Shown: piece by piece, positions 168-30,821 of the stretch | Layout: each line of letters begins with the position of its first letter | Numbering within the stretch: position 1 is the first letter of the stretch | Origin: a virus | Strand: one strand, 5' to 3' | Length of the DNA: 39,433 nucleotides | IMG/VR virus record: IMGVR_UViG_3300017917_001799 | Location: 1-39,433 of that record | Notes under the pieces: generated by a model | What the model saw: only the letters and a program-made list of their open reading frames with translations | The model's database searches: none | What the model was told of the DNA's origin: nothing | Position numbers and translations under genes: made by a program

Positions 168-1796
168 ATGCCTTTACAGATTCGCAGAGGTAATAACGCC
201 GAAAGGCAACAGATAACACCGGCGGCCGGCGAGCTAATCTACGTTACCGACACTAAAGTTATATTTGTCGGGGATGGTACCACACAGGGTGGCGTTCCAG
301 TAATTAACTACAGCTCAGGAACTATCAAAGACTTAGCTGCTGAAGTTTTTACACAAGGTGTTCACAACGGCATTTCGTTTACATATGATTCAGTTACCAA
401 TAGAATTAATGCCAACGTAGAACCAGATTTATCAAATTATGAAGGAACCATTGGTGCCTCGGCATTCAAGGGTTCTTTTTTCGCCGACGATTCAACAAGA
501 TTATTAAACGGCATCGATGGTAGTATCAATCTAAACGGTACAGTTAAAACTAACGTGATACCCGGCACCGACGGAGATTACGACCTAGGAAACCCCACTT
601 TTAGATTCAATGAATTATACCTAGCTGGTCCTTCATTATACTTAGGGGCAGCACAAATAGTATCTATCGGCAGTACTATAAATCTACCAGCCGGATCTAC
701 TGTTGCGGGAGTGCCGATCGGCACAGGGACCGGTGGTAGTGGCGATGGTATTGTTGAAGGCAGCAATTATAGGATCAACATCTATGGCGCAGACAGTACT
801 GTGATCGTAGATGCAGACAACGGTTATCTACGTGGTGACCTAGAAGGCTCCATTAAAGGTAATGTATTTTCTCCAGATAACAGCTCGATCGTTTTAAATT
901 CTGAAACAGCTACATTAAATGGAACTGTAGAAAATGCAGGACTTAGTATCACAGCCAACGGCGAAATTATCGGTAAGAGAGTATTCGGCGGAATTGATAG
1001 TCCTATTGATATTGGTACTGCTGGCATTCCTAGCACATTAAGAGTTTTTTCTGATCAAAGATTGGTACAGGGTTTCGGAACCACTGACGGAGTTCTTGGT
1101 CTAGATATAGAAGTCAGTATTTCAAGAGGTACAATGACTTCTCCGGTTATCGTCCAAGCAGGAGATACATTAGGCGGTTTAAGATACGAAGCATATGACG
1201 GTGTCGATTACCAATTTGCTAGCCAACTAAATTTCTTGATTGATCCAAGAACTACTCCTAGTTCGGGTAATATTCAAACTGTTACTATGATAGATTTTCC
1301 TCCTGATACTACCCCAGGAGATAGATCATTTGTATTCGATGGAGCAGGCGATTTTCATGCTCCGTTATCAGTTAAGTCATCAGTGCAGACATTGGGCGTA
1401 TACGACCTAACAGATCCTACAGTATCTTTATTCTCAAGTTACAGTGATCGTACTGCTGTATCCGGAACATATACTCAACTTGCATCGTTGGCAACAGAAA
1501 CCCAGGTAATATTTGCTTATCCTAAAGCAGATTACATCGGCGGAAAAATAATGTTGATCGTAAGAAATGACACAGCAGGTGGAACCAGTATCACCGAACA
1601 CAAAATCGTCAATACCACTTCTTCAGTGGTAGATTTAGTAGTTGGAGCATTGTTATCAGATGGTACTGCGCCGATCGCAACAGTAGTTACCCAAATCAAT
1701 GGTAATGATGTTGAAATAGGTTTTGATACATCCGGTACTAATACTGCAGGTGATGTCTTATCTTACAAAGCTGTAATTGAATTATTCACCGCTTAA
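168..1796 (+). CDS. Tail-fibre/receptor-binding-like structural protein, Mtd_N-type N-terminus
   Basis: This 542-residue protein opens with LQIRRGNNAERQQ, then AAGELIYVTDTKVIFVGDG, the pattern of the N-terminal domain of phage tropism-determinant and fibre proteins that attach to the baseplate. The middle is rich in Gly, Asn, Ser and Thr with short beta-repeat segments such as YDLGNPTFRFNELYL (about residues 138-152). The last 120 residues look like a beta-sandwich tip. No enzyme motif is seen. The start has a good AGGAG site and a late promoter, consistent with a virion gene. The gene overlaps the end of the opposing radical SAM gene by 15 bases. It may be the receptor-binding fibre or a baseplate-attached accessory fibre; the exact role cannot be decided here. 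Confidence 0.75.
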   Translation: MPLQIRRGNNAERQQITPAAGELIYVTDTKVIFVGDGTTQGGVPVINYSSGTIKDLAAEVFTQGVHNGISFTYDSVTNRINANVEPDLSNYEGTIGASAFKGSFFADDSTRLLNGIDGSINLNGTVKTNVIPGTDGDYDLGNPTFRFNELYLAGPSLYLGAAQIVSIGSTINLPAGSTVAGVPIGTGTGGSGDGIVEGSNYRINIYGADSTVIVDADNGYLRGDLEGSIKGNVFSPDNSSIVLNSETATLNGTVENAGLSITANGEIIGKRVFGGIDSPIDIGTAGIPSTLRVFSDQRLVQGFGTTDGVLGLDIEVSISRGTMTSPVIVQAGDTLGGLRYEAYDGVDYQFASQLNFLIDPRTTPSSGNIQTVTMIDFPPDTTPGDRSFVFDGAGDFHAPLSVKSSVQTLGVYDLTDPTVSLFSSYSDRTAVSGTYTQLASLATETQVIFAYPKADYIGGKIMLIVRNDTAGGTSITEHKIVNTTSSVVDLVVGALLSDGTAPIATVVTQINGNDVEIGFDTSGTNTAGDVLSYKAVIELFTA

Positions 1797-3344
1797 TTTT
1801 TTAATCAAAGGAATGAAATAATCATTCCTTACAGTATCAAGAAAAAGCTGAGAGAAATTAATTGATTCTTTCAGCTTTTTTATTTCTTGCTCAGTCATAT
1901 CTAAGAGTTTTTCTCGATCACAAAGACGATCGTCATTGTAAGAACTAATATAAAAATCACCCCGACATTCTCTAGGAACAAGTGTTTTGTTTATTTCAGA
2001 AGCTATAGATTCTGCCTCTTCATAGCTTCGTATATCTGTATCGTCGTCTTTACGCCAACTAAAATAATTTTTTTCTGGATTAGGAAAATAATAACCGTAC
2101 TTACTGTAATTTTTATCTATTTCGCTCATATACATATACTTGACCAAATCATGATTTCCTATAATGCTAAGAGGAAACATATTGGCAAGATCCACAGGAC
2201 AATCAGTTTGTTTAAAAAATTCAGCGGCGCGGTATATAGTATCTCGACTTTCATACGGTAGTCCTACAATGATACCGGCGGCGATATAACTTCTTGAACC
2301 CCAAACATCTTTACATTTATACATTGTTTCGATAATCCTATCACTGGCCATTCCCTTGCCAATAAATTTAGCCGTTTTAGGATTAAAGGTTTCTATTCCG
2401 AAATAAGTTTCAGCTATTCCTGCGTCTTTCAATAACGTTATCTGTTCTGAATGAACAGCTAGAATATCTGCTCTAAGATAGCACCAAAATTTCATTTCGA
2501 AAGGTAAGCTCTGACTAACATCTGCAAACATCTGCATCTTTTCTGTGCTGTCATTAAATGTATCATCGACTATGAAATATTTTGTGGTTCCCCATCTCTC
2601 ATAGTTTTCTATTAATTCTCTACGTATCACATCGGGATGTTTGAGATAATCTGCAGTCTTCTGTCCAATTAGAGGATAGCTGCAATAGGCACATTTGAAT
2701 TTACAGCCTCTACTGACTTCAAGATTCAAAGTTTCTTGTGGTTGTATAAAATCATAATCAGTATATGAAGTTGTACTGGTTCGAAAATCCCAAACGGGAC
2801 TGTGTGCTTTGCGATCGTGATCTATAATACGATTAAACAGTCGACGATTTTTACCGGAAAGAGAATCTAAAAGATCTAATGTTTCTGTCTCACCTATTCC
2901 TACTATAACATGATCAACTGGTGCATCAAGATAGAAATCTATTTTAGCACCTCCTATAAATGTCTTAGTTTTAGGATTTAATTTTTTAATATAACTGATC
3001 CAAGGTCCGTAGCAATTTTTAGAAAATGCCCCTATAAGATTATCGTCTCGTAGTCTTTCATTATCAAGATCCTCGCCCCCCTCTCCGGGATTTCTAGTTC
3101 GAACTCCTACATCTGGAAATTTATAAGGCATCCATGTAGTACTAAATCCTATCGCCAAGGTATTTTTTCCTACAGCACGATCTAATATTTCTGTATAAAT
3201 TTTCCAATCGACCAAGGAACTGAAGTCAATTACCAAGCAACTATAACCGTGTTCTCTTATATGGCTAGCCAATCTGTGTACACCGTACCCTCTAGTTTTA
3301 ACATCGAATTGTACAGTATCAGCGAATAAAACGACATCAAACAT
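1782..3344 (-). CDS. Radical SAM protein with B12-binding-like N-terminal domain (paralogue 1)
   Basis: A 520-residue protein. The N-terminus (residues 1-165) has the alpha/beta layout of B12-binding domains (RGYGVHRLASHIREHGY at 18-34, then LVIDFSS; GIGETETLDLL at 149-159) but lacks the DxHxxG cobalt-ligand motif. The radical SAM core follows, with C214, C218 and C221 in CKFKCAYC binding the 4Fe-4S cluster. FIVDDTFND and YFGIETFNP are typical strands of this B12-radical SAM layout. It is a tandem paralogue of the next gene upstream, which it overlaps by 8 bases, and the pair share an operon read leftwards from the late-type element at 4963-4970. Substrate is unknown; methyltransferases, cyclases and ring-contracting enzymes all use this layout. 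Confidence 0.8.
   Translation of the reverse strand: MFDVVLFADTVQFDVKTRGYGVHRLASHIREHGYSCLVIDFSSLVDWKIYTEILDRAVGKNTLAIGFSTTWMPYKFPDVGVRTRNPGEGGEDLDNERLRDDNLIGAFSKNCYGPWISYIKKLNPKTKTFIGGAKIDFYLDAPVDHVIVGIGETETLDLLDSLSGKNRRLFNRIIDHDRKAHSPVWDFRTSTTSYTDYDFIQPQETLNLEVSRGCKFKCAYCSYPLIGQKTADYLKHPDVIRRELIENYERWGTTKYFIVDDTFNDSTEKMQMFADVSQSLPFEMKFWCYLRADILAVHSEQITLLKDAGIAETYFGIETFNPKTAKFIGKGMASDRIIETMYKCKDVWGSRSYIAAGIIVGLPYESRDTIYRAAEFFKQTDCPVDLANMFPLSIIGNHDLVKYMYMSEIDKNYSKYGYYFPNPEKNYFSWRKDDDTDIRSYEEAESIASEINKTLVPRECRGDFYISSYNDDRLCDREKLLDMTEQEIKKLKESINFSQLFLDTVRNDYFIPLIKKLSGE
2539..2585. repeat. 47-bp exact direct repeat, copy 1
   Basis: These 47 bases are identical to 4112-4158. They encode TKYFIVDDTFNDSTEK on the minus strand inside the radical SAM core of the two tandem paralogues. 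Flanking sequence differs even at third codon positions, so the stretch is unusually well preserved and may mark gene conversion. Confidence 0.85.
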
Positions 3345-4956
3345 TTTTATTTTTTCTTAATTTTTCTAACAGAGGTGTAAAATATTCTGATGTTACACTA
3401 TTGATAAAAAATTCATCAAAGTCTATCGTAGAAAGTACCGCTGAATATTCTTCCGGTGTCATGTCTATAGTGCGTTCTCGATCTTTTAATATCGGATGAT
3501 TAAAAGAACTAACATAAAAATCTCCTTGTCTAGTTCTTTGATAAGGCTGGAGTTCAGCATAGCTTTGATCAGCGATTTCCATAGCTTCGGCAAAAGATCT
3601 TATATCTGTGCCATCATCCTTTTCCCAGGCAAGCATACCTTCTACACCGTCATAGGGAAAAACATAACCGTATTGTTCGTAATTGTTATCAAACCAGCTA
3701 GTAGGAAACCATTGGTTGCGTTCTGACTTTTTAACAATGTTCAAGGGATAAACAGTTGAAATATCCAAGGGACAATCGTTACGCTTTAACCACTCCATGG
3801 TCTGATTCCACGATGCTCTGGTTTCGAATGGAAGTCCGATCATAAAACCTCCTTCTATCCAGACTCTATCACCCCAGACTTCTCGAGCTTTATATAAAGT
3901 ATCTTTTCTCTTAGATGCAGCCATACCTTTTCCGATAGTTTTTGAACTTTGATCATTTAATGTTTCTAGACCAAAAAAAGTTTCTGCAAGTCCGCAGGCC
4001 TTTAATAATTCCATTTGTTCAGGAAATGCTGACAATAAATCTACCCTGGTATAACACCAAAATTTTAATTGAAAAGGTAAGTCTCTAACTACATTATAAA
4101 ACATTTCTAGTTTTTCTGTGCTGTCATTAAATGTATCATCGACTATGAAATATTTTGTAGTACCCCAACGTTCGTAATTTTCTAGTAACTCGTCTCTAAT
4201 AATATTAGGATATTTGAGATAATCATTGATATTTTTTTGACCGATCAATGGAAAATTACAAAAAGCACATTTAAATCTGCACCCTCTTCCTACTTCAATG
4301 TTTAAAGTTTCTTGCGGCTGTAAAAAATCATATTCTGTGTAGCGAGTAGAACTTTCTCTAAAATCCCAGGTGGGATTATGAGCCTTTCTATCGTAGTCAA
4401 TTATAGAATTAAAGATACGTTTAGGACCTCTACCGCTTAGGCTGTTCAAAAGATCTATGGTCATAGTTTCTGCTATACCAAAAATAAAATGATCAACGTT
4501 TTTAAAATCCATATAAAAATCAGTTTTCGCTCCGCCGAGAACTATTTTTGTTTTTGGGTTAACAGTCTTAGGATATCGTAGCCATTCATCTACTTCGTTC
4601 TTTCCAAACTTTACCACAAGATTATCTTTTCGCCAGTCGTGTTTTTCTTCTTTTGTATTAGACATTTCAAACATCTCGCCTATGTTATGACCGGGAATTT
4701 GATTGGTATATTCGCCTGGATTTTCAGGGAATCGATAAGGCAACCATGTAGTAGAAAATCCGATCATATAGGTTTCGGGACCTACTGAAAGATCAATAAT
4801 TTCTTTATATGTTTCAAAAGTTAACGCTGAACTAAAATCAACAACCAAACAGGTATATCCGTTGGCTCTAATTTGGCTAGCGATTCTGTGAACACCATAT
4901 CCACGAATTTTATGATGTGGATATGGAGCATCGGTAAATAGTATCACATTAAACAT
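3337..4956 (-). CDS. Radical SAM protein with B12-binding-like N-terminal domain (paralogue 2)
   Basis: A 539-residue paralogue of the 1782-3344 product with the same architecture: B12-binding-like N-terminus (RGYGVHRIASQIRANGY at 18-34), then the radical SAM core with C226, C230 and C233 (CRFKCAFC). It carries an extra charged insert around residues 80-112. Again there is no DxHxxG motif, so cobalamin may be bound base-off without a His ligand or not at all. It is the first gene of the leftward operon and starts 6 bases after the late-type element, with no visible ribosome-binding site. Two related enzymes side by side suggest consecutive or two-site modification of a related substrate; this is inference. 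Confidence 0.8.
   Translation of the reverse strand: MFNVILFTDAPYPHHKIRGYGVHRIASQIRANGYTCLVVDFSSALTFETYKEIIDLSVGPETYMIGFSTTWLPYRFPENPGEYTNQIPGHNIGEMFEMSNTKEEKHDWRKDNLVVKFGKNEVDEWLRYPKTVNPKTKIVLGGAKTDFYMDFKNVDHFIFGIAETMTIDLLNSLSGRGPKRIFNSIIDYDRKAHNPTWDFRESSTRYTEYDFLQPQETLNIEVGRGCRFKCAFCNFPLIGQKNINDYLKYPNIIRDELLENYERWGTTKYFIVDDTFNDSTEKLEMFYNVVRDLPFQLKFWCYTRVDLLSAFPEQMELLKACGLAETFFGLETLNDQSSKTIGKGMAASKRKDTLYKAREVWGDRVWIEGGFMIGLPFETRASWNQTMEWLKRNDCPLDISTVYPLNIVKKSERNQWFPTSWFDNNYEQYGYVFPYDGVEGMLAWEKDDGTDIRSFAEAMEIADQSYAELQPYQRTRQGDFYVSSFNHPILKDRERTIDMTPEEYSAVLSTIDFDEFFINSVTSEYFTPLLEKLRKNKNV
4112..4158. repeat. 47-bp exact direct repeat, copy 2
   Basis: Identical to 2539-2585, located at the equivalent place in the paralogous radical SAM gene. 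Confidence 0.85.
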
Positions 4957-4962
4957 AGTGTA

Positions 4963-4970
4963 TATTTAAG
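4963..4970 (-). promoter_or_regulatory. Late-type promoter element (CTTAAATA), leaderless arrangement
   Basis: Read on the minus strand the sequence is CTTAAATA, two mismatches from TATAAATA, followed by 6 bases and the ATG at 4956. A T4-type late start site would fall at or beside the start codon. It lies in the 26-base gap between two divergent genes. On the plus strand of this gap only a weaker GTTAAAAA (4970-4977) precedes the ATG at 4983. Confidence 0.5.
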
Positions 4971-4982
4971 TTAAAAATCTAG

Positions 4983-5687
4983 ATGAGAAAATTTAGTTGT
5001 GTCTTAGCATTTGGTGATAGTCATGTGGCAGGTTGCGAGCTCAGTTCGATGACTGGTCTTGATCAGTATCTCAACGGGCAGGTAACTATTGAGGAAGCAG
5101 ATGCTTCTGGTAAGTTATTTTCATTTCCTAAGATTGTTGCTGAAAAATTAAATATTCCTTGTTATAATTATGCAATGACTGGTGGTAGTAACAGTCGAAG
5201 TTTAAGATTATTGACACAGGCAGTACAAGAACATCCAAATGCCTTAGTTCTGTTTGGTTATACATGTACTGATAGAACTGAATTTTATTATCCGGATCAT
5301 GGTCTTTATCTGGGACGAGATAAGGATAATTTTATACAGGTAGGTATGCAATGGCAAGGAATGATAGACTCTTTTGTAAAGTCTTCGCCGATGAAACATC
5401 CGATCAATGATCTTTACATTAAAAATATTTTAAGACCTTATAATAATTTAAAAGAAATAATGTTCTGTGTTGACAATATCTGCACAGGATATGCTTTAGA
5501 CTTTATACATATACCCCTATTTCCTGACGACATTCCAGACGTAGAAAATCTAATGAATTTTCAAGAATATGGAAACTATATCGATTGGTGCGAGGGTAAT
5601 AAATTCAAACGCCTGCAATTCTTACACTACGATATAGAAGCTCATCAAAAATTAGCTGAACTTATTATCAAGGATCTAGGCGCATAG
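4983..5687 (+). CDS. SGNH/GDSL-hydrolase-like protein
   Basis: A 234-residue protein with the block I motif FGDSH (nucleophile S13), block II/III-like GGSN at 67-70, and a C-terminal D217-x-x-x-H221 (YDIEAH), the usual positions of the SGNH catalytic residues. Families of this fold remove acyl or other ester groups from sugars, lipids or peptides. There is no signal peptide, so it would act in the cytoplasm. It is a single-gene transcription unit inside the island, flanked by radical SAM genes on both sides, and its end overlaps the convergent radical SAM gene by 20 bases. Catalytic spacing at the C-terminus is slightly unusual (DxxxH rather than DxxH). Confidence 0.65.
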   Translation: MRKFSCVLAFGDSHVAGCELSSMTGLDQYLNGQVTIEEADASGKLFSFPKIVAEKLNIPCYNYAMTGGSNSRSLRLLTQAVQEHPNALVLFGYTCTDRTEFYYPDHGLYLGRDKDNFIQVGMQWQGMIDSFVKSSPMKHPINDLYIKNILRPYNNLKEIMFCVDNICTGYALDFIHIPLFPDDIPDVENLMNFQEYGNYIDWCEGNKFKRLQFLHYDIEAHQKLAELIIKDLGA

Positions 5688-6837
5688 CCTCTCTACTGCG
5701 AAATCTATAACGTTCGGGAACTGTATCCCATAGATTCATATTTCTATTCACAGCGGCATCTCTTAACATAATTTGATGTAAAAAATTAGTTATAGGTTTT
5801 CCCGGAACAAAATCACACCAAGGACCACAACGTAGTTCTTCAAGATCAATGGTTTTAGGATCACTCCACTGAATAAGTCTATGTGTAATACCGTTGATTT
5901 TAACCATGTAATGATAAAGGTTATCATCTGCAGAAATTTTTTCCCAGGTCCATCCCTTAGATATAACATAGTCTTGTATAGCCTTAACGTGGTCACTTAG
6001 ATACCATCTAGGCTCGTCTGGATTTCTGCCAATATCACTGCCGGCTCTTACACGATATTGCCAAGCACTATTTCCTAATCTCTGTATCTCATCTAACACA
6101 TCTGGAAAATGATTAACATCTTCCACGGTATATCCTACGTAATAAACAAAGATGCCTTCTTCGTTGCAGTTTTTAATACCTTCTAGTTGTTTTCTGTGTA
6201 CAGTTTCTCCCTGGTACGAGTGATGATTTAAACCGATCATAACCGCACGGCATCCAGCCTCTTTAATTTCTTTGACCCATTGACGGTCGGAAAATCTAAC
6301 TCCATTGGTTAATATAGTAATATCCTGATGATCTCTACCTAATCGTTTTTGTAACTGATCAATTTTTCTTATAAGCTCAGGTAAATCTTTTCTTAGCGTA
6401 GGTTCTGCTCCTGCTAGAATAACGCTACCTGCATCATCTGGCCATGCTTCTATTTGTGCCAATATCAAATCGATCGGTTTATCCTGAGTTTTATTTTCTG
6501 GCTCATGATAACAATGAGGACAATTTAGATTGCACCGATCGGTAACTTCAACCATGATACCGCTAGGAACATCGTATCCGTAAGGATCGAAATCTAGAGC
6601 ATAATAAAATTCAGAATCTCTCTCGATCATGTGTTCTGAATATCCGTGTTCAGAACAGGTTTTCCCTAACCATATAGATCCGTTTCTTTCAAACTTTTCT
6701 CCCGGAACGTGCCTATAACATTCATGACATAAAGATACTGTTTTACCTAAGACTATTTTCAATCCTAATCTTTGAGGTATCTGTAATGTATACAGAGTTT
6801 TTTTAACAAGATTTACTGTTCGATCAATTATTTCCAT
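5668..6837 (-). CDS. Radical SAM protein with N-terminal Cys-rich domain, Tes/MJ0619-like
   Basis: A 389-residue protein. An N-terminal metal-site-like domain has C37-x-x-C40 (SLCHECYR) and C61-x-x-H64 (KTCSEHG), the layout seen ahead of the core in the archaeal-type radical SAM families that include tetraether lipid synthase (Tes) and MJ0619. The core carries C102, C106 and C109 (CNLNCPHC), then LAGAEPTLR as the GGEP-like strand. Two further Cys (RCGPWC, about residue 335) may bind an auxiliary cluster. Those relatives form or methylate unactivated C-H bonds in lipids or pterins. It is the last gene of a three-gene leftward operon with the GNAT-like and kinase-like genes, overlapping the former by 10 bases. 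Family placement is from motif memory, not alignment. Confidence 0.75.
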   Translation of the reverse strand: MEIIDRTVNLVKKTLYTLQIPQRLGLKIVLGKTVSLCHECYRHVPGEKFERNGSIWLGKTCSEHGYSEHMIERDSEFYYALDFDPYGYDVPSGIMVEVTDRCNLNCPHCYHEPENKTQDKPIDLILAQIEAWPDDAGSVILAGAEPTLRKDLPELIRKIDQLQKRLGRDHQDITILTNGVRFSDRQWVKEIKEAGCRAVMIGLNHHSYQGETVHRKQLEGIKNCNEEGIFVYYVGYTVEDVNHFPDVLDEIQRLGNSAWQYRVRAGSDIGRNPDEPRWYLSDHVKAIQDYVISKGWTWEKISADDNLYHYMVKINGITHRLIQWSDPKTIDLEELRCGPWCDFVPGKPITNFLHQIMLRDAAVNRNMNLWDTVPERYRFRSREAMRLDP

Positions 6838-7382
6838 CTTGGATATTTTCCTAATTCTTCATAAAATTTATCTGGAAACAATTGCCAAACGGTCTGCATT
6901 GTTCCTCTATAAAAAAGATCCTTAACTCTTTTCATCTGTCCAGATTTCTCCATAGCTGGTCCAAAAATCCTATGTACTAATCTCTGCGTACCTGCATCAT
7001 TTTCGTTGCTAGTAATGTAAAGACTGCTGCCCTTAGGAGCCCATTCTATACAAGCAGGTATTAAGAATTGACTAGTAGCATGTTGATGTGTAACTATTTG
7101 ATTTGAAGTCCGTAATGTATTTAACGGTAATTGATCAGTGAATACACAGGTGCGAGCTGCGATCCTATAACTGTTTGGCCCCATCTCATCAAAACTATGA
7201 GCCGCTACTGAACCAACTGCTCGATCATTATAGTATAGAATCCAGACCTGTTTTTCTCTTTCATTGTTAAAACAGTCTACTAACATTTTTTGGCTTGCAT
7301 TATTAATGAATCCTTTGGAAGCCGCTGTATTATAAAAATCAGTGAGATCTATATCATTGGACCAAGGAATTATTTTATACAT
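6828..7382 (-). CDS. GNAT-acetyltransferase-like protein
   Basis: A 184-residue protein. The segment VWILYYNDRAVGSVAAHSFDE (about 46-66) followed by a strand with RIAARTCVF resembles the beta2-beta4 part of GNAT N-acetyltransferases, which move an acetyl group from acetyl-CoA to an amine. The R/QxxGxG/A pyrophosphate loop is not clearly present, so activity is uncertain. It overlaps the kinase-like gene by 13 bases and the radical SAM gene by 10 bases, so the three are probably made together. Confidence 0.45.
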   Translation of the reverse strand: MYKIIPWSNDIDLTDFYNTAASKGFINNASQKMLVDCFNNEREKQVWILYYNDRAVGSVAAHSFDEMGPNSYRIAARTCVFTDQLPLNTLRTSNQIVTHQHATSQFLIPACIEWAPKGSSLYITSNENDAGTQRLVHRIFGPAMEKSGQMKRVKDLFYRGTMQTVWQLFPDKFYEELGKYPRWK

Positions 7383-8056
7383 TTTACTCTGTCTATAAAA
7401 TCAGAAGGATAATTTTTTCTAAAACTTTCCCAACACAATATCTGTAGAAGATCAAACGGTTGAGGATCAGTCCAGCTTATGCCCATAGCATCAGTAACCT
7501 TTTTCATTTCTTCTTGTCTGGTGCTATAGATATGACTTGTATGTTCTTGTATGCTGATAGCCGGTTCTGTTTGATGATAAGTGAAAAAATAATTAATACT
7601 CTTTAATTTTCCGTCTACCACAAAGTAACTGCTAGGGTGCATAGAATATTTGTAAAGACCTAGATTTCTATGAGATTGAACGATATTAAGCATTTGTTCT
7701 TGCCAATCAGGCAAAACAGAATCGAAATTTTCTTGTTCGCAACCAGCTAATTCCCAAAAATCAGGACCCTGTACTTTTAAATATATCTTTCGTTGAATCA
7801 TATCAATGTCTAAAATTTCCGGAACTAACTCTGGATTTTTTTCAGACATTAAATTTAGATATTTCACTTCTCTTTGAAATTTCTGTTCCATAAGAGATGG
7901 ATCAACTACTTCATTTTGTCCTTTATGATATTCACCGTCATTGTAATACCATTGTACGAAAACTTTTTTATCCTCGCTCATTAGACTGGTGTAAATAAGA
8001 TTGTTGCGACAGAGTCCACTTCCTGGCACATTGTTGTAGTAATAATTGAAATTCAT
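7370..8056 (-). CDS. Degenerate protein-kinase-fold-like protein (paralogue of the 21291-21989 gene)
   Basis: A 228-residue protein. FQREVKYLNLMSEKNPELVPEIL (split at about 60-82) resembles the kinase N-lobe helix and following strand, and YKYSMHPSSYFVVDGKLK then SINYF (136-157) sits where kinases have the catalytic loop and DFG. The DFG position reads NYF and no catalytic Asp is visible, so it looks like a pseudokinase or a fold cousin rather than an active kinase. It shares the opening pattern NLIYTSLM with NLIYTPLI of the paralogue 14 kb away. It is the first gene of a leftward three-gene operon with a weak late-type element in front. Role unknown; a scaffold or substrate-binding part is conceivable. 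Confidence 0.45.
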   Translation of the reverse strand: MNFNYYYNNVPGSGLCRNNLIYTSLMSEDKKVFVQWYYNDGEYHKGQNEVVDPSLMEQKFQREVKYLNLMSEKNPELVPEILDIDMIQRKIYLKVQGPDFWELAGCEQENFDSVLPDWQEQMLNIVQSHRNLGLYKYSMHPSSYFVVDGKLKSINYFFTYHQTEPAISIQEHTSHIYSTRQEEMKKVTDAMGISWTDPQPFDLLQILCWESFRKNYPSDFIDRVKCIK

Positions 8057-8060
8057 ACAG

Positions 8061-8068: not shown

Positions 8069-8095
8069 TAAATTTTAGAATGCGAGAATAGAAAC

Positions 8096-11196: not shown

Positions 11197-11200
11197 GTTG

Positions 11201-22027: not shown

Positions 22028-22031
22028 AAAC

Positions 22032-22889: not shown

Positions 22890-23616
22890 TATTGATGGAG
22901 TTATTATACCCTTCGATCCAGACTGGCGTAGCGTAGCAATCAGCCTTAGCGGTGGTGCGGACAGCGCCTTGTTGGCCTATTTGATCTGTTGTTTAGCTCA
23001 AGAACATAAGATAAACAATTTTACAGTACATTGTATTAGTCATACGAGGATGTGGAAAACTAGACCCTGGCAAGGTTACGATAGTTTAAGAATCTTTAAT
23101 TGGTTAAGAACATATTTTGCACATATTAATTTTGGAAGGCATACTAACTTTATCGCGCCAGAACTAGAATACGGGAACATCGGTCCTAGCCTAACTGATG
23201 AATACGGAAAAAATGTTAGCGGGGACAACATAGAAATTCGAGCATTTGCTGAATACATCTGTTACCAAAACGATTGCGATGCCTACTATAATGCCGTGAC
23301 AAGAAATCCTAGAGGAATAGATCTAGGAGGAATGAAAGAACGAGACATCGAACCAACTGACAAAAATCAACATCTACAGATTATGCAACACATGGGTAAG
23401 TGGGCCTTACATCCTTTTAGGTTCGTAGAAAAAGATTGGGTAGTAAAGCAGTATTATAGATTAGGATTAGAGGATCTTTTTAACTTAACTAGAAGTTGTG
23501 AGGGAGAATTTAAAGATATAAATTATACAAATTATAAACCTAATCAATACGTTCCTATTTGTAATAATTGTTTCTGGTGTAAAGAAAGGAAATGGGCCAT
23601 TGAACAAAACCAGTAA
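22876..23616 (+). CDS. PP-loop ATPase, QueC-like
   Basis: A 246-residue protein. The PP-loop SLSGGADSALLA (23-34) binds ATP and adenylates a carboxyl or carbonyl group. Four Cys at the end, C208 (RSCEGE), C229, C232 and C235 (CNNCFWCKERKW), give the zinc site of QueC, the 7-cyano-7-deazaguanine (preQ0) synthase. The central part differs from what I recall of QueC, so a different adenylated substrate is possible. A QueD homologue starts at 39228, but no QueE is evident. It overlaps the previous gene by 14 bases and the next by 17. Confidence 0.7.
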   Translation: MNHYDIDGVIIPFDPDWRSVAISLSGGADSALLAYLICCLAQEHKINNFTVHCISHTRMWKTRPWQGYDSLRIFNWLRTYFAHINFGRHTNFIAPELEYGNIGPSLTDEYGKNVSGDNIEIRAFAEYICYQNDCDAYYNAVTRNPRGIDLGGMKERDIEPTDKNQHLQIMQHMGKWALHPFRFVEKDWVVKQYYRLGLEDLFNLTRSCEGEFKDINYTNYKPNQYVPICNNCFWCKERKWAIEQNQ

Positions 23617-24862
23617 TACTTTTTGTATGCATCCTTTTACAGGATTAGCCACTAGAGAAGACGGAGCCATTTGCGCCTGTTGCCGAAGCCACCCAGTTGG
23701 CTTTATAGATCAACAACCATTAGAAGAGATCTGGAACAACGAAACTATGAAACGTATTCGAAGGCAGGTTCTTAACAATGAAAGACCACCAGAATGCGAA
23801 CCTTGTTTTAGTTTAGAAGATCAGGGCGTGGTAAGTCTAAGAAAGAGGCACGTAGAAGGACATATCCCAGAAGCACGTATTAACCTCTATCCTAATGCCT
23901 TGGACAATCTACGCAAAGATTATTCTATGCCATTTGAAATTCCTACTATGGAACTAAAATTGAATAATCTCTGTAATTTAAAATGCCGTATGTGTCATCC
24001 AATGGACAGTACCTCTTGGAACGACTGGAGTGAAATTAAGGACTTCTATAAGAAGGAAGGCAACATCATGTATGCCATAGTAGAAGAACATAATCTAGAA
24101 AATAAACCTTTTTTAGATAAATTTCAAGACGATCCTAGATGGTGGGCCAGTTTAGAAAAATTATTACCTTACTTCCGTCGTGTAGAGTTTGCAGGCGGTG
24201 AGCCTTTAATGGATCCGCAACACTATCGAATCTTAGACATGCTAGCACCTTATGGTCATCAGATAGAAATTAAGTATGCTACTAATCTAAGTATGTTAGG
24301 AAAAAGTAATCGCACTATTTGGGAATACTGGCCTAAATTCAAAAGTATCGCTGTAAATGTTAGCATAGACGGCATTGGATCTAGTTACGAATATGTTCGA
24401 GGAAACGCATCTTGGGCCGAATTGATTAATAATATAAAACAGATCCAGACTATTCCTAATATCAGTAGAATTGTAGGAGCAGTCACAGTACAGGTTAGTA
24501 ATGTTTTAATACTTGACAAAATGATAGAATACTTCTTAGATGATTTAGGAATCGTATTTCATACTCATCGAGTAGAATATCCTAAACTTTTATCTGCACA
24601 GGTTATTCCTTCTGACTTAAGAAAAATAGCTATAGAGAGACTAGAACAGGTATCTTTACGTGTGCCTGAATTTAAATTTGTTAAAAAGTATCCGCAACTA
24701 TTGCCTTATACGCTAGGACAGATTAAAGACAATATAAATTATTTAAAAGCAAGAGATCAAAGTTATCTATGGCAAGACTGTGTCGAATTCAATCGTCGTT
24801 TAGATAAATCTAGAGATCAAAGTTTTACAGATATAACCCCAGAATTTAAAGACTATGTATAA
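23600..24862 (+). CDS. Radical SAM protein with N-terminal twitch/SPASM-like cysteines
   Basis: A 420-residue protein. The N-terminus has FCMHPFTGLATREDGAICAC with C9, C25, C27 and C28, then EIWNNETMK and C66-x-x-C69 (CEPC), the pattern of a twitch-type auxiliary cluster domain placed before the core. The core has C125, C129 and C132 (CNLKCRMC) and FAGGEPLMDP for SAM binding. The 26735-28150 product has the same plan. The start is TTG at 23600 with AAAGGA upstream, overlapping the QueC-like gene; ATG at 23627 would remove C9. Substrate unknown; twitch proteins often act on peptides or sugars. Confidence 0.8.
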   Translation: MNKTSNTFCMHPFTGLATREDGAICACCRSHPVGFIDQQPLEEIWNNETMKRIRRQVLNNERPPECEPCFSLEDQGVVSLRKRHVEGHIPEARINLYPNALDNLRKDYSMPFEIPTMELKLNNLCNLKCRMCHPMDSTSWNDWSEIKDFYKKEGNIMYAIVEEHNLENKPFLDKFQDDPRWWASLEKLLPYFRRVEFAGGEPLMDPQHYRILDMLAPYGHQIEIKYATNLSMLGKSNRTIWEYWPKFKSIAVNVSIDGIGSSYEYVRGNASWAELINNIKQIQTIPNISRIVGAVTVQVSNVLILDKMIEYFLDDLGIVFHTHRVEYPKLLSAQVIPSDLRKIAIERLEQVSLRVPEFKFVKKYPQLLPYTLGQIKDNINYLKARDQSYLWQDCVEFNRRLDKSRDQSFTDITPEFKDYV

Positions 24863-25748
24863 ATTAACTAGCTCTTGGCCGCATCAAGATCAGATTAAAG
24901 TTGAATGGAATATAGGCAAACGTTGCAATTATGATTGCACCTATTGTCCCAAGGAAATACATGATAATTTTAGTCCACATACGCCGATAGATGTTTTAGA
25001 AAAAACTATAGATCAATTAGTAGAGATAGGAAAACCTATAAGATTAAGTTTTACTGGCGGGGAACCTAGTGTGCATCCAGACTTTGAGGATCTATTAGAA
25101 TACTGCAAAAGAAAAGGTATATTCTGGATTAACTTAACTACCAATGGAACTAGGTCTAGCCGTTGGTATCTGCAACACGAAATGTTTATTAATCATATTG
25201 TTTTTAGTCTACATTTTGAACACGACTGGCAGCGTGTGGCTAGAACCATTAACGAATTCTACGACGGAACAGAAATTGATTTTTTTGTTAATGTTATGGC
25301 TCACCACGATCATATGGATAATGTTCGTAAGGTTGTGAAACAGTTTAAAGAAGTTGGAATTAAGTTTGCGGTTCGAAGAATACGTTGGACCGAAGGCGAT
25401 CATAATGTATTTGACGATCTAAAATATAACGGAAATGATCTCCAGTGGATTTTAGAACAAGATGCCACTGTCAAACCTAATGTTAGAATAGATGATGACA
25501 AAGTAATGCATGCCAATGATGTAATCAAATTACACCTAAATCAATTCAAAGACTGGTCTTGTAATGCCGGTATTGAAAGTTTGATGATTAATTGGGACGG
25601 TGAAGTGCATCGTGCTACCTGTAGGGTAGGAGGTAGCTTAGGTAATATCTACACCGGAAGTTTTATTGTTCCAAAAGATCCTGTTATATGTACCAGAGAT
25701 TGGTGTACCTGTGCTGCTGACATTCCCTTGACTAAGTTTAAACTTTGA
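24855..25748 (+). CDS. Radical SAM protein with C-terminal auxiliary-cluster cysteines (convergent pair, plus copy)
   Basis: A 297-residue protein. Core C24, C28 and C31 (CNYDCTYC), SFTGGEPSVHPD (about 67-78) and TTNGTRSSRWY follow the standard order. The C-terminus has WSCNAGIESL, then C279, C284 and C286 (CTRDWCTC), likely ligands for a second Fe-S cluster, ending in TKFKL. The 25638-26738 product on the opposite strand is a paralogue with the same C-terminal plan. Overlaps the upstream radical SAM gene by 8 bases. Confidence 0.8.
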   Translation: MYKLTSSWPHQDQIKVEWNIGKRCNYDCTYCPKEIHDNFSPHTPIDVLEKTIDQLVEIGKPIRLSFTGGEPSVHPDFEDLLEYCKRKGIFWINLTTNGTRSSRWYLQHEMFINHIVFSLHFEHDWQRVARTINEFYDGTEIDFFVNVMAHHDHMDNVRKVVKQFKEVGIKFAVRRIRWTEGDHNVFDDLKYNGNDLQWILEQDATVKPNVRIDDDKVMHANDVIKLHLNQFKDWSCNAGIESLMINWDGEVHRATCRVGGSLGNIYTGSFIVPKDPVICTRDWCTCAADIPLTKFKL

Positions 25749-26738
25749 TATGTGTGTCTCTGGCTGGCAGGTACATTTAGAAATAGCACAGATAGATGGT
25801 AACAATTTTGGTTGAAACTTTTCAATAAAATTATCGTCGAAAATATTATATTGAAAATCTAGATTGTAAATCGTTTGACCACAAGATCCTTTTATGTAAC
25901 CTTGTGAATCAACAAAAACACACTCAAGTCCTATATCGCAACTCCAACCTTTAAAATTATTCCAATTGTTGTTTATATAGACCTGAGGTTTTCCTTTTAT
26001 AGTTTTACCGTTATCCAACCAACCTTTGCTTTCATGGAATCTAATAACACCGTTTGAAAACAGATGTCTATTTTTTATAAACCAAAAGAGTCCAGGAGCT
26101 CTCTTTATTTCATCTTTGAGATATATTTTCTGTTTTTCAGTATAAGAAATAACTGCATCGTCGGACCATTCCACTAGTTCCTTTGCCTGTATAACCCAAT
26201 CATATTTGCTTTTTTTCTTAAGATATTCAACAGCGGCTACGCAGTTATCCCAGTTTTCGTGATCCATTAATACCAATGCTGTAACTTTCTTTCCAAGAGC
26301 ATGAAGAGTATCAGCCACTTCTATATGATGATCTAGGTTGGCCTGTGAAACATGCAAAGACAATACCGCATCGTCAATAGCATGTCCATATTCTTGCCAC
26401 CAGCGTAGAGTCCTAGATCCATTAGAAATAATACTGATATAAGTATCATGTTCTTTCTTCATGGCTAGTATAAATTGTTCAAGACCTTTCCATAGTGTAG
26501 GTTCACCGCCTAATATCTTTATGTGAAATTGATCTTTTCCTGCATGTTTTTTGTAGTAGTTAATTAGATGATTGAAATGTTTAATTGTTAACTCTACATC
26601 TGTCGGCGCTTTGTCTGTACCCTCGAATGATCCAGGAAAACAATACCTACATTTAAAATTACAGAGATTATGAGGCATCCATCTTAATTCTAATATATTA
26701 GATTTCTGCGTTGAAACAATCTTTATCGGATGAGTCAT
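25638..26738 (-). CDS. Radical SAM protein with C-terminal auxiliary-cluster cysteines (convergent pair, minus copy)
   Basis: A 366-residue protein. Core C26, C30 and C33 (CNFKCRYC), ILGGEPTLWKG (74-84) and SNGSRTLRWW match the plus-strand paralogue. The C-terminus has WSCDIGLECV, then CAISKCTC, and reaches SKFKL at residues 331-335, where the paralogue stops. Here the frame continues for 31 further residues that are the antisense of the other gene, giving a 111-base coding overlap. The tail is probably a by-product of a lost stop codon. Starts 4 bases inside the previous gene's end (ATGA). Confidence 0.8.
   Translation of the reverse strand: MTHPIKIVSTQKSNILELRWMPHNLCNFKCRYCFPGSFEGTDKAPTDVELTIKHFNHLINYYKKHAGKDQFHIKILGGEPTLWKGLEQFILAMKKEHDTYISIISNGSRTLRWWQEYGHAIDDAVLSLHVSQANLDHHIEVADTLHALGKKVTALVLMDHENWDNCVAAVEYLKKKSKYDWVIQAKELVEWSDDAVISYTEKQKIYLKDEIKRAPGLFWFIKNRHLFSNGVIRFHESKGWLDNGKTIKGKPQVYINNNWNNFKGWSCDIGLECVFVDSQGYIKGSCGQTIYNLDFQYNIFDDNFIEKFQPKLLPSICAISKCTCQPETHISKFKLSQGNVSSTGTPISGTYNRIFWNNKTSGVDIT
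25734..25745. repeat. 12-bp palindrome at the junction of convergent radical SAM genes
   Basis: AAGTTTAAACTT is its own reverse complement and encodes Lys-Phe-Lys-Leu in both reading directions, once for each of the two convergent paralogues. The plus gene stops directly after it; the minus gene reads through. Confidence 0.85.
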
Positions 26739-28150
26739 AGAAGATGTGCTAGTTCGGGAAATACTGATTTAAAATCTAGTCCTCTATGTGCATCCATAGT
26801 TGAAATATATTCTCTAAAATCTGGTAGGAGATTGGTGTGATCTTCAGCATCCATCCATTCCAAAATACCTTCCCAACGTTTCCAACCATAGGGATTAGTT
26901 TCCCAAAACTCCGAGTCTTGTGTATAATTATTCCATAACCATTGCTTAAGATCATCAAATAAACGATGTACTTCTTCTTTATCTTCTTTAGGTAATACAC
27001 GAAGACTTAGCCAGGTGGGTATCCATAAGAGATGAACTCCAATTAATCCGCCTCCGTTTGTCTGGCCTGCAACGTTTTTTTCAAAGTTTAGTTTTTTAAA
27101 ATTACTGCTAACTTTCCATTTAATGAAATCAGGAATATGTTTGATATTAAGAATTTGCACGGCCAATGCAATATTACAATGAATGTGCTCCGCAGTATTA
27201 TCCAGCTTCTCTAGGTTAGCTTTTACTACTTCCCAATCTGTAGGATAACGTATGTAGTGTACTCGATCTCCCATCCCGTCGAGACTTACTCCAACTTTTA
27301 CTTTTTTAAATTGATTCCATATTTCAATAATATCGTCGTCAACTAATAGACCGTTGGTATTATATCTTAAACTAATTTTATCAGCATAACCTTGACGAAT
27401 AATTTCTTCTAAGAACAATCTATGTTCTTTAATCATTAACGGTTCGCCGCCAGCAAAATATAATTGTTTTAGATTAGGAATTTGATCATAAATTTCTTTC
27501 CAGAAATCCGGATTCTCGTGCCAGAAATTATTAAATTCTTTTCTATCCCAGGTCATTTGTTTTTTAATCAATGAACTTTGGAATATAGGAAATACTTTTT
27601 TATGGTCTGCTACCCACTGACTAGAATCATGAGGACTACACATGATACATTTTAAATTACAGGTATGGCCTAATCTAAGATCTAAGTATTCTAATCTATA
27701 CGGTACGCTACCATCTTCTTCTGTATTAGCTATGAGTTTAGGAATATCGACATTATCGTAATGCCACGTGCCAGTTTCCCATATACGTTTACTGGCAATA
27801 CCTTGTTGCTCTTCTTCATAACATTTTAAGCAACTAGCAGGAACTTCGCCGGCTAACATTGTTTTTCTTACAGACTTCATGTAATCATTGTTGAAAGCCT
27901 CAGTTGGCAAATTGTGTCCAAAGTTAGCAGGCTTACCATCTTCCATCTTTACCAACCCAACAGAGTAATCTCCTGTATTTGCGCCGCTGGCATTCGCCAC
28001 ACAGCAAATGCGCATGTCACCGTTGGGTCTTGTAGCTAGGTGTATCCACGGTAATACACAAAAACTAGGACTACCGGATATTTCTGTAATCTGCTTCTGC
28101 CAGTTACCTAATTGCGTATTTTCGGGTTGGAGCCAGAATACTTTATTCAT
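26735..28150 (-). CDS. Radical SAM protein with N-terminal twitch/SPASM-like cysteines
   Basis: A 471-residue protein with the same plan as the 23600-24862 product. The N-terminus has SFCVLPWIHLATRPNGDMRI (C31) then C49-C50, and C107-x-x-C110 (CLKC) followed by EEEQQGIASKR; the core has C164, C168 and C171 (CNLKCIMC) and FAGGEPLMIKEH. An insert with GANTGDYSVGL separates the first Cys groups. It is coupled to both neighbours by overlaps of 4 and 8 bases in a five-gene leftward operon. Confidence 0.8.
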   Translation of the reverse strand: MNKVFWLQPENTQLGNWQKQITEISGSPSFCVLPWIHLATRPNGDMRICCVANASGANTGDYSVGLVKMEDGKPANFGHNLPTEAFNNDYMKSVRKTMLAGEVPASCLKCYEEEQQGIASKRIWETGTWHYDNVDIPKLIANTEEDGSVPYRLEYLDLRLGHTCNLKCIMCSPHDSSQWVADHKKVFPIFQSSLIKKQMTWDRKEFNNFWHENPDFWKEIYDQIPNLKQLYFAGGEPLMIKEHRLFLEEIIRQGYADKISLRYNTNGLLVDDDIIEIWNQFKKVKVGVSLDGMGDRVHYIRYPTDWEVVKANLEKLDNTAEHIHCNIALAVQILNIKHIPDFIKWKVSSNFKKLNFEKNVAGQTNGGGLIGVHLLWIPTWLSLRVLPKEDKEEVHRLFDDLKQWLWNNYTQDSEFWETNPYGWKRWEGILEWMDAEDHTNLLPDFREYISTMDAHRGLDFKSVFPELAHLL

Positions 28151-29234
28151 TAAAAACCTCTAGATCTAAAAATTGATCTCTACATTGACTCACAACAGGT
28201 TCTGGAAATTTTCCACAGGTTCTGGCGCATACAGGTAATCCCTTGGTATTAAATTCTTCATTCCAGATCGTTTGCCATTCAATGCTATCAACTATATCTT
28301 TTATCGTTCTGTTTCTCAAATTAAATTGCTCCATACCGCCAAATTGATTAACTACTCTCATAAAGTTTGAATAACTGTCCTGCTGATAATTATAAACCAA
28401 CTGTTCAGGTTTAGCATGAATGTAGGGAACCGCTCCTACAAAACAACAGGGCCAAAGATAACCTAATGCATCAACATATACGCTTTTTGTTCCTTCAACT
28501 TCACAGACAATATTAGCCTGCTTAATTAATTCTTTATAATTTTCAACAGTTTTTCTATCAATAAAAATTAATTTTTGTTCGGTAGGATTTTCTAATTTGT
28601 GTGTAACATTTCCATTTTTATCATAGACTTCAAAGTAAGGATTTCCTATAAATCTACTGGTCTGCTTTTCGTAGAAACTTTCAAAGCCTAGATCCTTGGC
28701 CATTTGTCTGGCTGTTTCTAATTGATGTTCATTGTGTTTAAATGTGATAAAATTCCAACGAGCGCGACCCCCTTCGCCTATAAATGCTGATGCATTTTCA
28801 ATAATCTTATTGAAGTCTGTACCTATTCTATATAAATGATGAGTGTCTTCTAGGCCATCGATACCAAACTGTACTAAATGATTTTTGGGCAAGGTATGAG
28901 CTAATTCTTTCCACCAGCTAATGGACCTAGCACTTCCGTTGGTATGTAGATCTATTCTGATCTCCGGATTGGCGGTGGCCATATGATCGACAATAGGAAT
29001 AAGGTCTTTATGAAGTATGGGATCTCCGTAGTTTCCGCACATCGTAATAGTGTGCAGCTGATTCATAAATTCAAAATTAAAAATTTCTTTGGCTAATGCT
29101 AGATCAATATCCGAAACCTTTAGAAGAGGATTTTCTAGACCGCCATGATGGTTCCTTGCGCACATCGGACATTTTGCCTGACAATTAGAACTAAGTTCTA
29201 CATGCACCACACCGATTTCGTCAAACTTATACAT
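28143..29234 (-). CDS. Radical SAM protein
   Basis: A 363-residue protein with core C18, C22 and C25 (CQAKCPMC), MCGNYGDPILH in place of GGEP, and LHTNGSARSISWW. FGIDGLEDTHHLYR is typical of the core's later strands. The C-terminal part has C244 region VCEVEGTKSVYVDALG, then WPCCF, and VCARTCGKF, which could hold an auxiliary cluster of the SPASM type. It overlaps the methyltransferase-like gene by 8 bases. Confidence 0.8.
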   Translation of the reverse strand: MYKFDEIGVVHVELSSNCQAKCPMCARNHHGGLENPLLKVSDIDLALAKEIFNFEFMNQLHTITMCGNYGDPILHKDLIPIVDHMATANPEIRIDLHTNGSARSISWWKELAHTLPKNHLVQFGIDGLEDTHHLYRIGTDFNKIIENASAFIGEGGRARWNFITFKHNEHQLETARQMAKDLGFESFYEKQTSRFIGNPYFEVYDKNGNVTHKLENPTEQKLIFIDRKTVENYKELIKQANIVCEVEGTKSVYVDALGYLWPCCFVGAVPYIHAKPEQLVYNYQQDSYSNFMRVVNQFGGMEQFNLRNRTIKDIVDSIEWQTIWNEEFNTKGLPVCARTCGKFPEPVVSQCRDQFLDLEVFNE

Positions 29235-29847
29235 TTACTTTTCCTATGATCATAAATCTTTTGTACAAAGGCATTTCCATTTCGCCTTCCCATAGAACAT
29301 GGATATTAGATTGTTTTTTAAATTCTTCTAAGTCTCTAGCTATTCTAACATGCTCTTCTATATTGTAATTATTACTTTGTAATACCACGAGACTGTTATT
29401 AGGTATTTTAGATATCCACGATTCATATTGTTCTTGTGTAATATGTTCACAACTAGTATTAATGATTATATCGGCATCGCTGTCTATGGAACACATATCG
29501 GCAGTTATAGCACGAAACCTTCCTTCTATTTCTTCTTTTTTATTCATCATGATAGCAACAGATTCACATTCTGGGTCTATATCTATACTGCGAATGTGAT
29601 CAATAGGAATATCACTTTGAAACAACATGCTAGAAAGTGTACCTACCCAGCCTCCGTGGATGTCGACGGTAACAGGAAACTCCATAGTTTTGTTACGCTC
29701 AGGATATATCACATATTCTAGAGTTTTAACTAACCATTCTTTACTCTGCATTTGACCCCTCCAGAACGCATCAAGGGTACGCATGGGATCTTTGCTTTCA
29801 CGGATGGCACACATCCAATAGTGTAAATGTTCTAGGTCTATTTGCAT
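29227..29847 (-). CDS. Class I SAM-methyltransferase-like protein
   Basis: A 206-residue protein. VTVDIHGGWVGTLSSML (59-75) resembles motif I, IRSIDIDPECE (85-95) motif II with an acidic residue to hold the ribose, and ITADMCSI then DIIINTSCEHI (126-136) the following strands. The helical N-terminus HYWMCAIRESKDPMRTLDAF is unassigned. A role in adding a methyl group within the radical SAM operon is likely, but the methyl acceptor is unknown. Overlaps both neighbours by 8-10 bases. Confidence 0.6.
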   Translation of the reverse strand: MQIDLEHLHYWMCAIRESKDPMRTLDAFWRGQMQSKEWLVKTLEYVIYPERNKTMEFPVTVDIHGGWVGTLSSMLFQSDIPIDHIRSIDIDPECESVAIMMNKKEEIEGRFRAITADMCSIDSDADIIINTSCEHITQEQYESWISKIPNNSLVVLQSNNYNIEEHVRIARDLEEFKKQSNIHVLWEGEMEMPLYKRFMIIGKVNV

Positions 29848-30821
29848 TTCGGTATCTTGCTATCTGCTGAACTAAAGCAACTAGGTGTCGTACACATAGT
29901 TGGCGATTTAAATAACTGGAATCCGTTAGTCAGAGTCCCTAGTCTCATATCGTGGCAACTATATGATCTTTTTACCTCGTCGCTGCGTATGATAACACTT
30001 TGGAATCCAGAATTACAATTCCACCCGTCAAACTTGTTAAAACCGAAAGCATTAAATCGTTCGGCTTGATCGAATAGATATTCAGTTCCTTGTGCATCAT
30101 AAAGTGCTATCTGATATAATTCTTCTCCGAGAGCCTGTTGCGGAAAACCTGTCTGCATTTTTTCAATCATATCATCGGTGTATCCTTCTACTAAATGACT
30201 AGCCGTTGGATCGCTTTGAGGCTTTAATGTAACATTAATTCCTCTCTGATAAAGTCTCTCCATTCTTTCATACAGATCATAGAATCTTTCTGGTACCATT
30301 ACTTGATTAATAGTTACGTATACCTGTTCGTACATCAGCTGTAGACATTTATCTCCGAATTCTTGTTCTTTGGCAAACTCGTCATGGAAGCTAGCGGTAA
30401 CACTTCTGCGCTGAAGCATTTCTGTAGATGTACACCAAGATTTCCACCATTTGCTTCCGGGACTGAGATTAGTTGTCATGTGTATGCTTTGATACGGGGT
30501 TTGAGGACCGTCGTCTAAATGCTGAATAAGATTTATTAGATCTTTATAAGCTGTAGGTTCGCCACCACTGAAACTCCAATGGAATTCAGTAAATCCGTTT
30601 TCTCTAGCCTGTCTTTTAATTTCGTCTATGGTTCTTTTATAAACTTCTAGGGTATCGTAATCCAATTTATCCGATCTAGCATAAGGCCAGCAGTAGGAAC
30701 AATTGTAATTACAGAAACGGCCTAATATCCAGCTTACCGAAAATAAAGGTCGATCTAACATAGTCCTTTGACCGAACCGTACGATATCTTGAAATGGTAT
30801 TGATTTAAAATTGGTTGTCAT
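29838..30821 (-). CDS. Radical SAM protein with C-terminal auxiliary cysteines
   Basis: A 327-residue protein with core C37, C41 and C44 (CNYNCSYC), WSFSGGEPTAYKD (about 82-94) and MTTNLSPGSKWW. The C-terminus has GWNCNSGFQSV, YSCHDMRLG and MCTTPSCFSS, similar in order to the convergent pair (WSC, then a Cys about 20 residues on, then CxxxxC). It leads the five-gene leftward operon, with ATTAAATA 10 bases before its ATG. Confidence 0.8.
   Translation of the reverse strand: MTTNFKSIPFQDIVRFGQRTMLDRPLFSVSWILGRFCNYNCSYCWPYARSDKLDYDTLEVYKRTIDEIKRQARENGFTEFHWSFSGGEPTAYKDLINLIQHLDDGPQTPYQSIHMTTNLSPGSKWWKSWCTSTEMLQRRSVTASFHDEFAKEQEFGDKCLQLMYEQVYVTINQVMVPERFYDLYERMERLYQRGINVTLKPQSDPTASHLVEGYTDDMIEKMQTGFPQQALGEELYQIALYDAQGTEYLFDQAERFNAFGFNKFDGWNCNSGFQSVIIRSDEVKRSYSCHDMRLGTLTNGFQLFKSPTMCTTPSCFSSADSKIPKCK

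Follow-up and report, generated by a model that had tools for sequence, protein, structure and literature searches.

We analyzed a viral contig, the complete IMG/VR record IMGVR_UViG_3300017917_001799 (39,433 bases, hereafter the window), which carries a dense island of enzyme genes beside a tail-fibre gene. The island comprises 33 genes (o2 to o34; coordinates below are followed by the strand) that overlap or are tightly packed, with 99.1% of the bases coding and a largest gap of 93 bp. An initial annotation, made from the sequence alone, had placed it at 1782-30821, exactly the ends of o2 and o34, and had described overlapping operons; the gene overlap is real. In the window, the island is bordered on the left by o1 (168-1796, +), a tail fibre or adhesin with an Mtd_N domain (Pfam Mtd_N, 1.9e-11), and on the other side by o35/ThyX.

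The nine radical S-adenosylmethionine (SAM) proteins of the initial annotation (o2, o3, o5, o28-o32 and o34) all match Pfam Radical_SAM, with E-values from 1e-20 to 2e-6; the score of o28 (28.5) lies just under the cut-off of 29.5. Both o28 (23600-24862, +) and o31 (26735-28150, -) are N-terminal-twitch radical SAM proteins. They pass the NCBIfam model N_Twi_rSAM (cut-off 170 bits) with 328 and 406 bits, match NCBIfam NF033640 at 1e-97 and 2e-121, and are intact in 51/51 and 56/56 homologues, respectively. The paralogues o2 (1782-3344, -) and o3 (3337-4956, -) match Radical_SAM at 7e-17 and 3e-15, and their CxxxCxxC motif is intact in 41/41 and 25/25 homologues; o2 is of the B12-binding type, and its nearest NCBIfam model is rSAM_ladder_B12 (1.3e-24, far under the cut-off). 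For o5 (5668-6837, -), the radical SAM core (1e-20) is accompanied by an HMPTM zinc ribbon (Zn_ribbon_HMPTM, 3e-14), the catalytic residues are intact in 87/87 homologues and the PDB profile match is GDGT-MAS (Tes), at 1e-30. This protein is related to Tes and TrsS and has its zinc ribbon and radical SAM core in common with Tes/GDGT-MAS and other HMPTM-zinc-ribbon enzymes, but it scores far under the Tes and TrsS equivalog cut-offs and has no lipid context. The remaining members are o29 (24855-25748, +; 6e-16; intact in 49/50 homologues), o30 (25638-26738, -; 2.5e-13; 24/27), o32 (28143-29234, -; 3.6e-9, with a weak SPASM match; 34/35) and o34 (29838-30821, -; 1e-11), the usual final gene of this island type, which is 66-90% identical in 10 relatives and 55% in one more.

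The count of eleven oxygenases was also borne out. A facial triad is present in all of them (o8, o10, o11, o15, o17 and o19-o24), and its H-x-D...H signature (H-x-G...H in o15) is invariant across the families. The Pfam model Asp_Arg_Hydrox is passed only by o15 (14480-15208, -; PF05118, 8.6e-15), o17 (15799-16332, -; 1e-24) and o19 (17628-18281, -; 3e-11), which belong to the Asp/Asn beta-hydroxylase family; o24 (20581-21255, -) is PF05118-like at a sub-threshold 0.0019, with ligands intact in 53/53 homologues. The other seven gave no Pfam oxygenase match, and their assignment draws on the invariant H-x-D...H in the families together with the fold of o8, the one oxygenase for which a predicted fold was compared. 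The model of o8 (8096-8899, +), the most conserved member, matches 2-oxoglutarate (2OG)/Fe(II)-type oxygenases with Z about 9.5, at moderate confidence, and H177/D179/H233 are intact in 93/94 homologues; PDB sequence profiles gave only sub-significant matches for o8, as for o6 (below). The other oxygenase-like proteins are the paralogues o10 (10579-11175, +) and o11 (11198-11827, +), both with a conserved triad; o20 (18269-18838, -), with H73/D75/H148 in 8/8 homologues; the paralogues o21 (18828-19394, -; ligands in 91/91) and o22 (19387-19941, -; 84/84); and o23 (19943-20584, -; 4/4, and invariant in 8 aligned sequences).

Three further enzymes had been named correctly. The tryptophan-halogenase-like protein o9 (8893-10485, -) matches Trp_halogenase at 5e-90 and is a predicted flavin-dependent halogenase of the tryptophan type; its catalytic K72 and E354 are intact in 11/11 homologues, and the position of the WxWxIP motif of flavin-dependent halogenases reads WMFKIG. 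The class III pyridoxal phosphate-dependent aminotransferase o12 (11824-13026, +) matches Aminotran_3 at 7.7e-43 and PDB profiles at 1e-31. The amidinotransferase o13 (12988-14058, -) has a pentein fold of the AGAT/HsvA/StrB1 kind, with profile matches to HsvA, StrB1 and AGAT from 2.5e-32 to 1e-21, and D174/H214/C340 are intact in 9/10 homologues. Next to it lies o14 (14055-14483, -), an amidinotransferase neighbour (phrog_10325, 7e-26).

The initial annotation had lacked a pair of kinase-like proteins, a GNAT/FeeM-like protein and a protein with a GT-A fold. The kinase-like o7 (7370-8056, -) and o25 (21291-21989, -) align in a joint family profile that matches TTK kinase at 2e-6. The canonical HRD and DFG aspartates of protein kinases were not found: HSDLKPANF...LIDFG of TTK aligns with YSMHPSSYF...SINYF of o7. 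The weakly assigned o6 (6828-7382, -) is a GNAT/FeeM-like acyltransferase (FeeM 0.0096, GNAT 0.45). The predicted model of o18 (16322-17641, -; pLDDT 83) combines a GT-A-fold N-terminal domain with a C-terminal domain of no assigned family. Its best structural matches are a PBCV-1 capsid glycosyltransferase (Z 10.6) and the lysyl hydroxylase LH3 (Z 10.3), but only the N-terminal half is matched, and a DxD is lacking. Neither o18 nor o26 (22032-22889, +; no assigned family, 68-71% identity in relatives) gave a PDB sequence-profile match.

To place the island in a wider set of genomes, we compared fifteen related viral contigs with the window by tblastn, and we scanned IMG/VR with a profile of o8 (393 stretches, of which 80 were kept; the locus counts below refer to these 80). 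The block occurs in the same order in G001, G002, G003, G004, G006, G009, G010, G011 and G017, as well as at the end of G005, a contig that overlaps with G006; it is rearranged in G007, G008, G012, G015 and dozens more. The genes around o8 stand in 57 distinct arrangements; the association thus persists through reshuffling and goes beyond the common descent of one block. The o8 loci contain o7 in 78 cases, o6 and o25 in 67 each, o22 in 61, an o5-type gene in 60, o31 in 56, o21 in 55, o28 and o24 in 53 each and o29 in 46. The halogenase family of the window (11 loci), o12 (17) and o13 (10) are less frequent. The island has a frequent core (o7, o25, o6, o8, o5, o28, o29, o31 and o21/22/24) at a fixed site beside an Mtd_N fibre, joined by exchangeable genes of the radical SAM, 2OG-type, halogenase, aminotransferase, amidinotransferase, SGNH and methyltransferase kinds. 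Within it, some genes co-occur as sub-modules: o28+o29 (p 3e-15), o12+o13 (p 1e-8) and o18+o19 (Fisher, p 1e-13). These values are indicative only because the loci are related. Where both o18 and o19 are present (26 loci), they lie next to each other in 24 (16322-18281, -, in the window), a split arrangement that recalls the accessory and hydroxylase domains of LH3.

Compared with its closest relative G003, the ratio of nonsynonymous to synonymous substitution rates (dN/dS) is mostly <0.1 where dS is unsaturated. The initial annotation would have been overturned by homologues scattered singly in other phages or by broken catalytic sites. We found neither, because the families recur together, in order and shuffled, and nearly all of several hundred homologues retain their catalytic residues. 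The conserved ligands also rule out that the motifs are chance or imagined. By its conservation and co-occurrence, the block is beyond a chance pile-up. A rival explanation is that the enzymes have no shared pathway and that independent auxiliary genes gather in a recombination hotspot near the tRNA genes and the tail fibre. A fibre and a tRNA-like gene or tRNA array flank the site, and the highly variable content around o8 speaks for a hotspot. Against this, the same families stay together down to 30-50% identity, core genes occur in 67-80 of the 80 loci, the sub-modules co-occur strongly and searches of GenBank phages and cellular genomes gave no sign of the core. We therefore regard the absence of a shared pathway as very unlikely.

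The carriers are jumbo T4-like phages, with o8 on contigs of up to 331 kb. The DNA polymerase and clamp loader of G002 are closest to those of the jumbo phages Phosso, Atu_ph07 and PA5oct. No match to o8, o7 or o18 was obtained in 50,697 GenBank phage records at E 0.01. A cellular origin was also considered and set aside: scans of 84,980 cellular species genomes, seeded with short conserved peptides and thus liable to miss distant relatives, gave no relative of o8 or o7. A sequenced Vibrio phage, K566 (L070, 255 kb), has several consecutive radical SAM genes close to a gene annotated as PagP, possibly a smaller version of the island.

The position of the fibre is nearly constant. An Mtd_N fibre stands at the island edge, with other phage genes beyond it, in 33 of 35 fibre-containing loci, and inside the island in the other 2. 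G018 (265 kb) carries, in sequence, a PPase, the fibre, tailoring genes over 35 kb, o34 and the tRNA-like gene; in G017 (269 kb) this PPase and o35 flank the island of the window, and no fibre was recognised at that site. Loci with more similar fibres also tend to have more similar island content, over and above the similarity of their core, but weakly (partial Mantel r 0.14, p 0.013).

The initial annotation had proposed one unrecognised tailoring system working on a virion protein, a glycan or a small molecule. A conserved and shuffled unit with intact sites supports a single system acting on one of several candidate targets. The block probably makes a chemical decoration that the virus uses, and its position next to the fibre favours a virion adhesin as the target. 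Our leading reading, which we hold tentatively and at somewhat less than an even chance, is a modular phage-borne tailoring pathway that acts on a virion adhesin. We favour the adhesin because of the position, the protein-hydroxylase-type enzymes, the GT-A fold of o18 and the lack of scaffold-building genes and of space within the island for a separate precursor gene; the weak Mantel link and the fibre- or baseplate-adjacent tailoring genes of other phages (below) point the same way. In an infected cell, one target class would receive changes at the C-H level (hydroxylation, halogenation, C-methylation or cross-linking, amidination), and a virion adhesin, for example the tail fibre next door, is the likeliest candidate. 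The kinase-like and GT-A-like proteins may serve as scaffolds or in recognition, and exchange of modules would alter surface chemistry and, with it, receptor binding or resistance to host defences. A bolder form, to which we would give only a modest chance, is a virus-exclusive combinatorial machine in which a core for recognition, acyltransfer and oxygenation works with shuffled modules to write non-canonical groups on the virus's own adhesins, extending receptor binding beyond the 20 amino acids.

Several points weigh against a pathway aimed at the adhesin. Physical linkage by itself could account for the small Mantel effect; fibre and island may do no more than occupy one recombination hotspot; no substrate was identified; and the component assignments of o4, o6, o16, o27 and o33 are weak. 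Moreover, o1 contains no Trp and no Cys. Trp halogenation and Cys thioethers on o1 are therefore excluded, leaving Tyr, Asp and Asn, and the halogenase would need Tyr, another aromatic or another substrate. We also considered a collagen-like fibre as the hydroxylase substrate, an idea that had come from one Gly-X-Y fibre and the LH3-like fold of o18. It was rejected: Gly-X-Y repeats occur in only 2 of 35 fibres, in loci without o18/o19.

The same enzymes can be read as tailoring a natural-product-like compound, either a small molecule or a modified peptide, with effects inside the infected cell or on competitors. The halogenase, the 2OG oxygenases, the B12-type radical SAM proteins, the class III aminotransferase, an amidinotransferase of the HsvA/SxtG/StrB1 kind and the FeeM-like protein all resemble natural-product tailoring, and some relatives add an AMP-binding ligase. 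However, this ligase is present in few loci only, and the window showed no scaffold-building enzyme (nonribosomal peptide synthetase, polyketide synthase or carrier protein), no transporter and no precursor peptide. The gaps of the island (93 bp at most) leave no room within it for a separate, non-overlapping precursor gene of the ribosomally synthesized and post-translationally modified peptide type. We consider a small-molecule product possible, if doubtful.

A further alternative is remodelling of the host cell surface (lipopolysaccharide or capsule) late in infection, for example against superinfection. The authors of the pelagimyophage study propose a comparable role for glycosyltransferases beside tail fibres (PMC7029224), and relatives of the window carry SGNH, FkbM and sulfotransferase-like genes. 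This explanation is unlikely given that no clear glycosyltransferase is present in the window, where family-level searches gave no match and the GT-A fold of o18 lacks a DxD.

Another alternative is phage DNA hypermodification against restriction, for example with 7-deazaguanines. We scanned for amidinotransferases with a profile (125 stretches, 80 kept, to which the counts refer), and o12 occurs in 50/80 and o14 in 43/80 of these loci. Because 19 loci carry the amidinotransferase but no other island family, many in the company of FolE, QueD-like and QueE-like genes, o13 also lives outside the island. In other phages (L199-L218, L230 and L231), it lies between FolE and QueD-like/QueE-like genes, together with glycosyltransferase- and epimerase-like genes; this second context is possibly a different modification pathway. 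Consistent with DNA modification, FolE and QueE/QueD-like genes thus flank an amidinotransferase elsewhere, o27 is QueC/TilS-like, and a QueD-like gene, o47 (39186-39431, +, cut off by the end of the window), which follows structural genes, is conserved in the lineage. Yet FolE, QueD and QueE lie outside the island, and eleven oxygenases plus nine radical SAM enzymes far exceed any known base pathway. A candidate DpdA in the lineage, a GDSGGFQ protein reminiscent of tRNA-guanine transglycosylase/DpdA (L021, 644-2407, -; L230, 1434-2960, +), has no Pfam or NCBIfam match. We judge DNA hypermodification improbable as the function of the island.

The initial annotation knew of no characterised phage pathway with this mix of enzymes. 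That holds as far as we searched, with the qualification that smaller precedents exist. The Campylobacter phages CP220 and CPt10 have an interchangeable cluster of about five radical SAM genes and a glycine amidinotransferase (PMC2853527). As in the window, several radical SAM genes accompany an amidinotransferase of the pentein fold (29% identity to o13) in a T4-like phage, there near baseplate genes. In the accessible part of that report, the cluster differs in having 10-12 genes with sugar-nucleotide transferase folds, no reported 2OG oxygenase or halogenase, and another lineage and host. Orthologous radical SAM genes in the same order were not found in the Campylobacter phages, where only o13 (29%) and o34 (23%, in CP21) were matched and o28, o31 and o5 had no match.

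A second precedent is the host recognition cluster of pelagimyophages and cyanomyophages, a hypervariable, glycosyltransferase-rich region with radical SAM cassettes between VrlC and gp14; Mtd domains occur among structural proteins (PMC7029224). It resembles the island as a large variable region at a fixed position beside tail-fibre genes of T4-like phages, and differs in being described as rich in glycosyltransferases, in the phages that carry it and in that no o7/o8 core is described. Cyanophages also encode 2OG-Fe(II) oxygenases and PrnA-type halogenases (PMC3037559), and VirX1 of cyanophage Syn10 is a characterised viral halogenase (reviewed in PMC8407142). Flavin halogenases about 31% identical to o9 are common among them, along with several 2OG oxygenases, and in cyanophage Sf-FR1 tailoring genes also lie beside tail fibres. 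The difference is that cyanophages carry one to few such genes, without a radical SAM block or an amidinotransferase/aminotransferase pair.

The scale, the mix of oxygenases, radical SAM enzymes and a halogenase, the o7/o8 core and the spread among jumbo phages were not found described in the open-licence literature searched, and there is a real chance that the island will prove categorically new once its substrate is known. Should the island prove to be a single pathway, it would rank, in chemical terms, with the most elaborate biosynthetic blocks seen in a phage, and one common in uncultured jumbo phages. It would make natural substrates of viral halogenases and 2OG oxygenases testable and add numerous new radical SAM and 2OG enzymes whose active sites are intact.

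Among the remaining genes, the proposed short-chain dehydrogenase/reductase (SDR), PP-loop and SGNH proteins all score under the Pfam cut-offs, yet their motifs are conserved. These are the SDR-like o16 (15198-15809, -; NCBIfam SDR, 0.0013), the QueC/TilS-like PP-loop ATPase o27 (22876-23616, +; TilS 0.00035, QueC-like phrog 0.0008; SGGxDS intact in 32/35 homologues) and the SGNH/GDSL-like hydrolase o4 (4983-5687, +; Lipase_GDSL 0.0088, GDSH invariant). The methyltransferase assignment of o33 (29227-29847, -) is weaker still: it is a conserved protein without a Pfam or other family match that looks methyltransferase-like by eye. The late promoters, from which, together with the overlapping operons, a common pathway had been inferred, are not supported, since the T4-type late motif TATAAATA occurs once against an expectation of 6.4.

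To the right of o34 lies a tRNA-like RNA (30883-30998, +), which is the right edge of the island in most relatives. It is a conserved RNA of 114 nt, with an acceptor stem, CCA, a T-arm and extra variable hairpins with compensatory changes. Its covariance model matches in the window, in nine related contigs and in eleven further loci; Rfam does not recognise the RNA, nor does ARAGORN in the window, whereas the L355 homologue, which is shorter, is called as tRNA-Pro (ggg). We treat it as a boundary element outside the pathway rather than as a member, because o8 loci with an internal o34 lack it and because kilobases separate it from o34 in G006 and G012. The right island edge of these two contigs has large tRNA arrays with near-complete isoacceptor sets. 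These arrays lie in L059 (7052-15837, 27 genes) and in L048 (17736-19745, 9 genes) plus L049 (219-6497, 24 genes). Just beyond the RNA in the window, an open reading frame of 64 codons (31041-31235, +; MSNTVEQLKAAMETFLAEDTKFTSGNGAAGTRARKALQEM...) is conserved in relatives and by eye resembles histone-H1-like small proteins.

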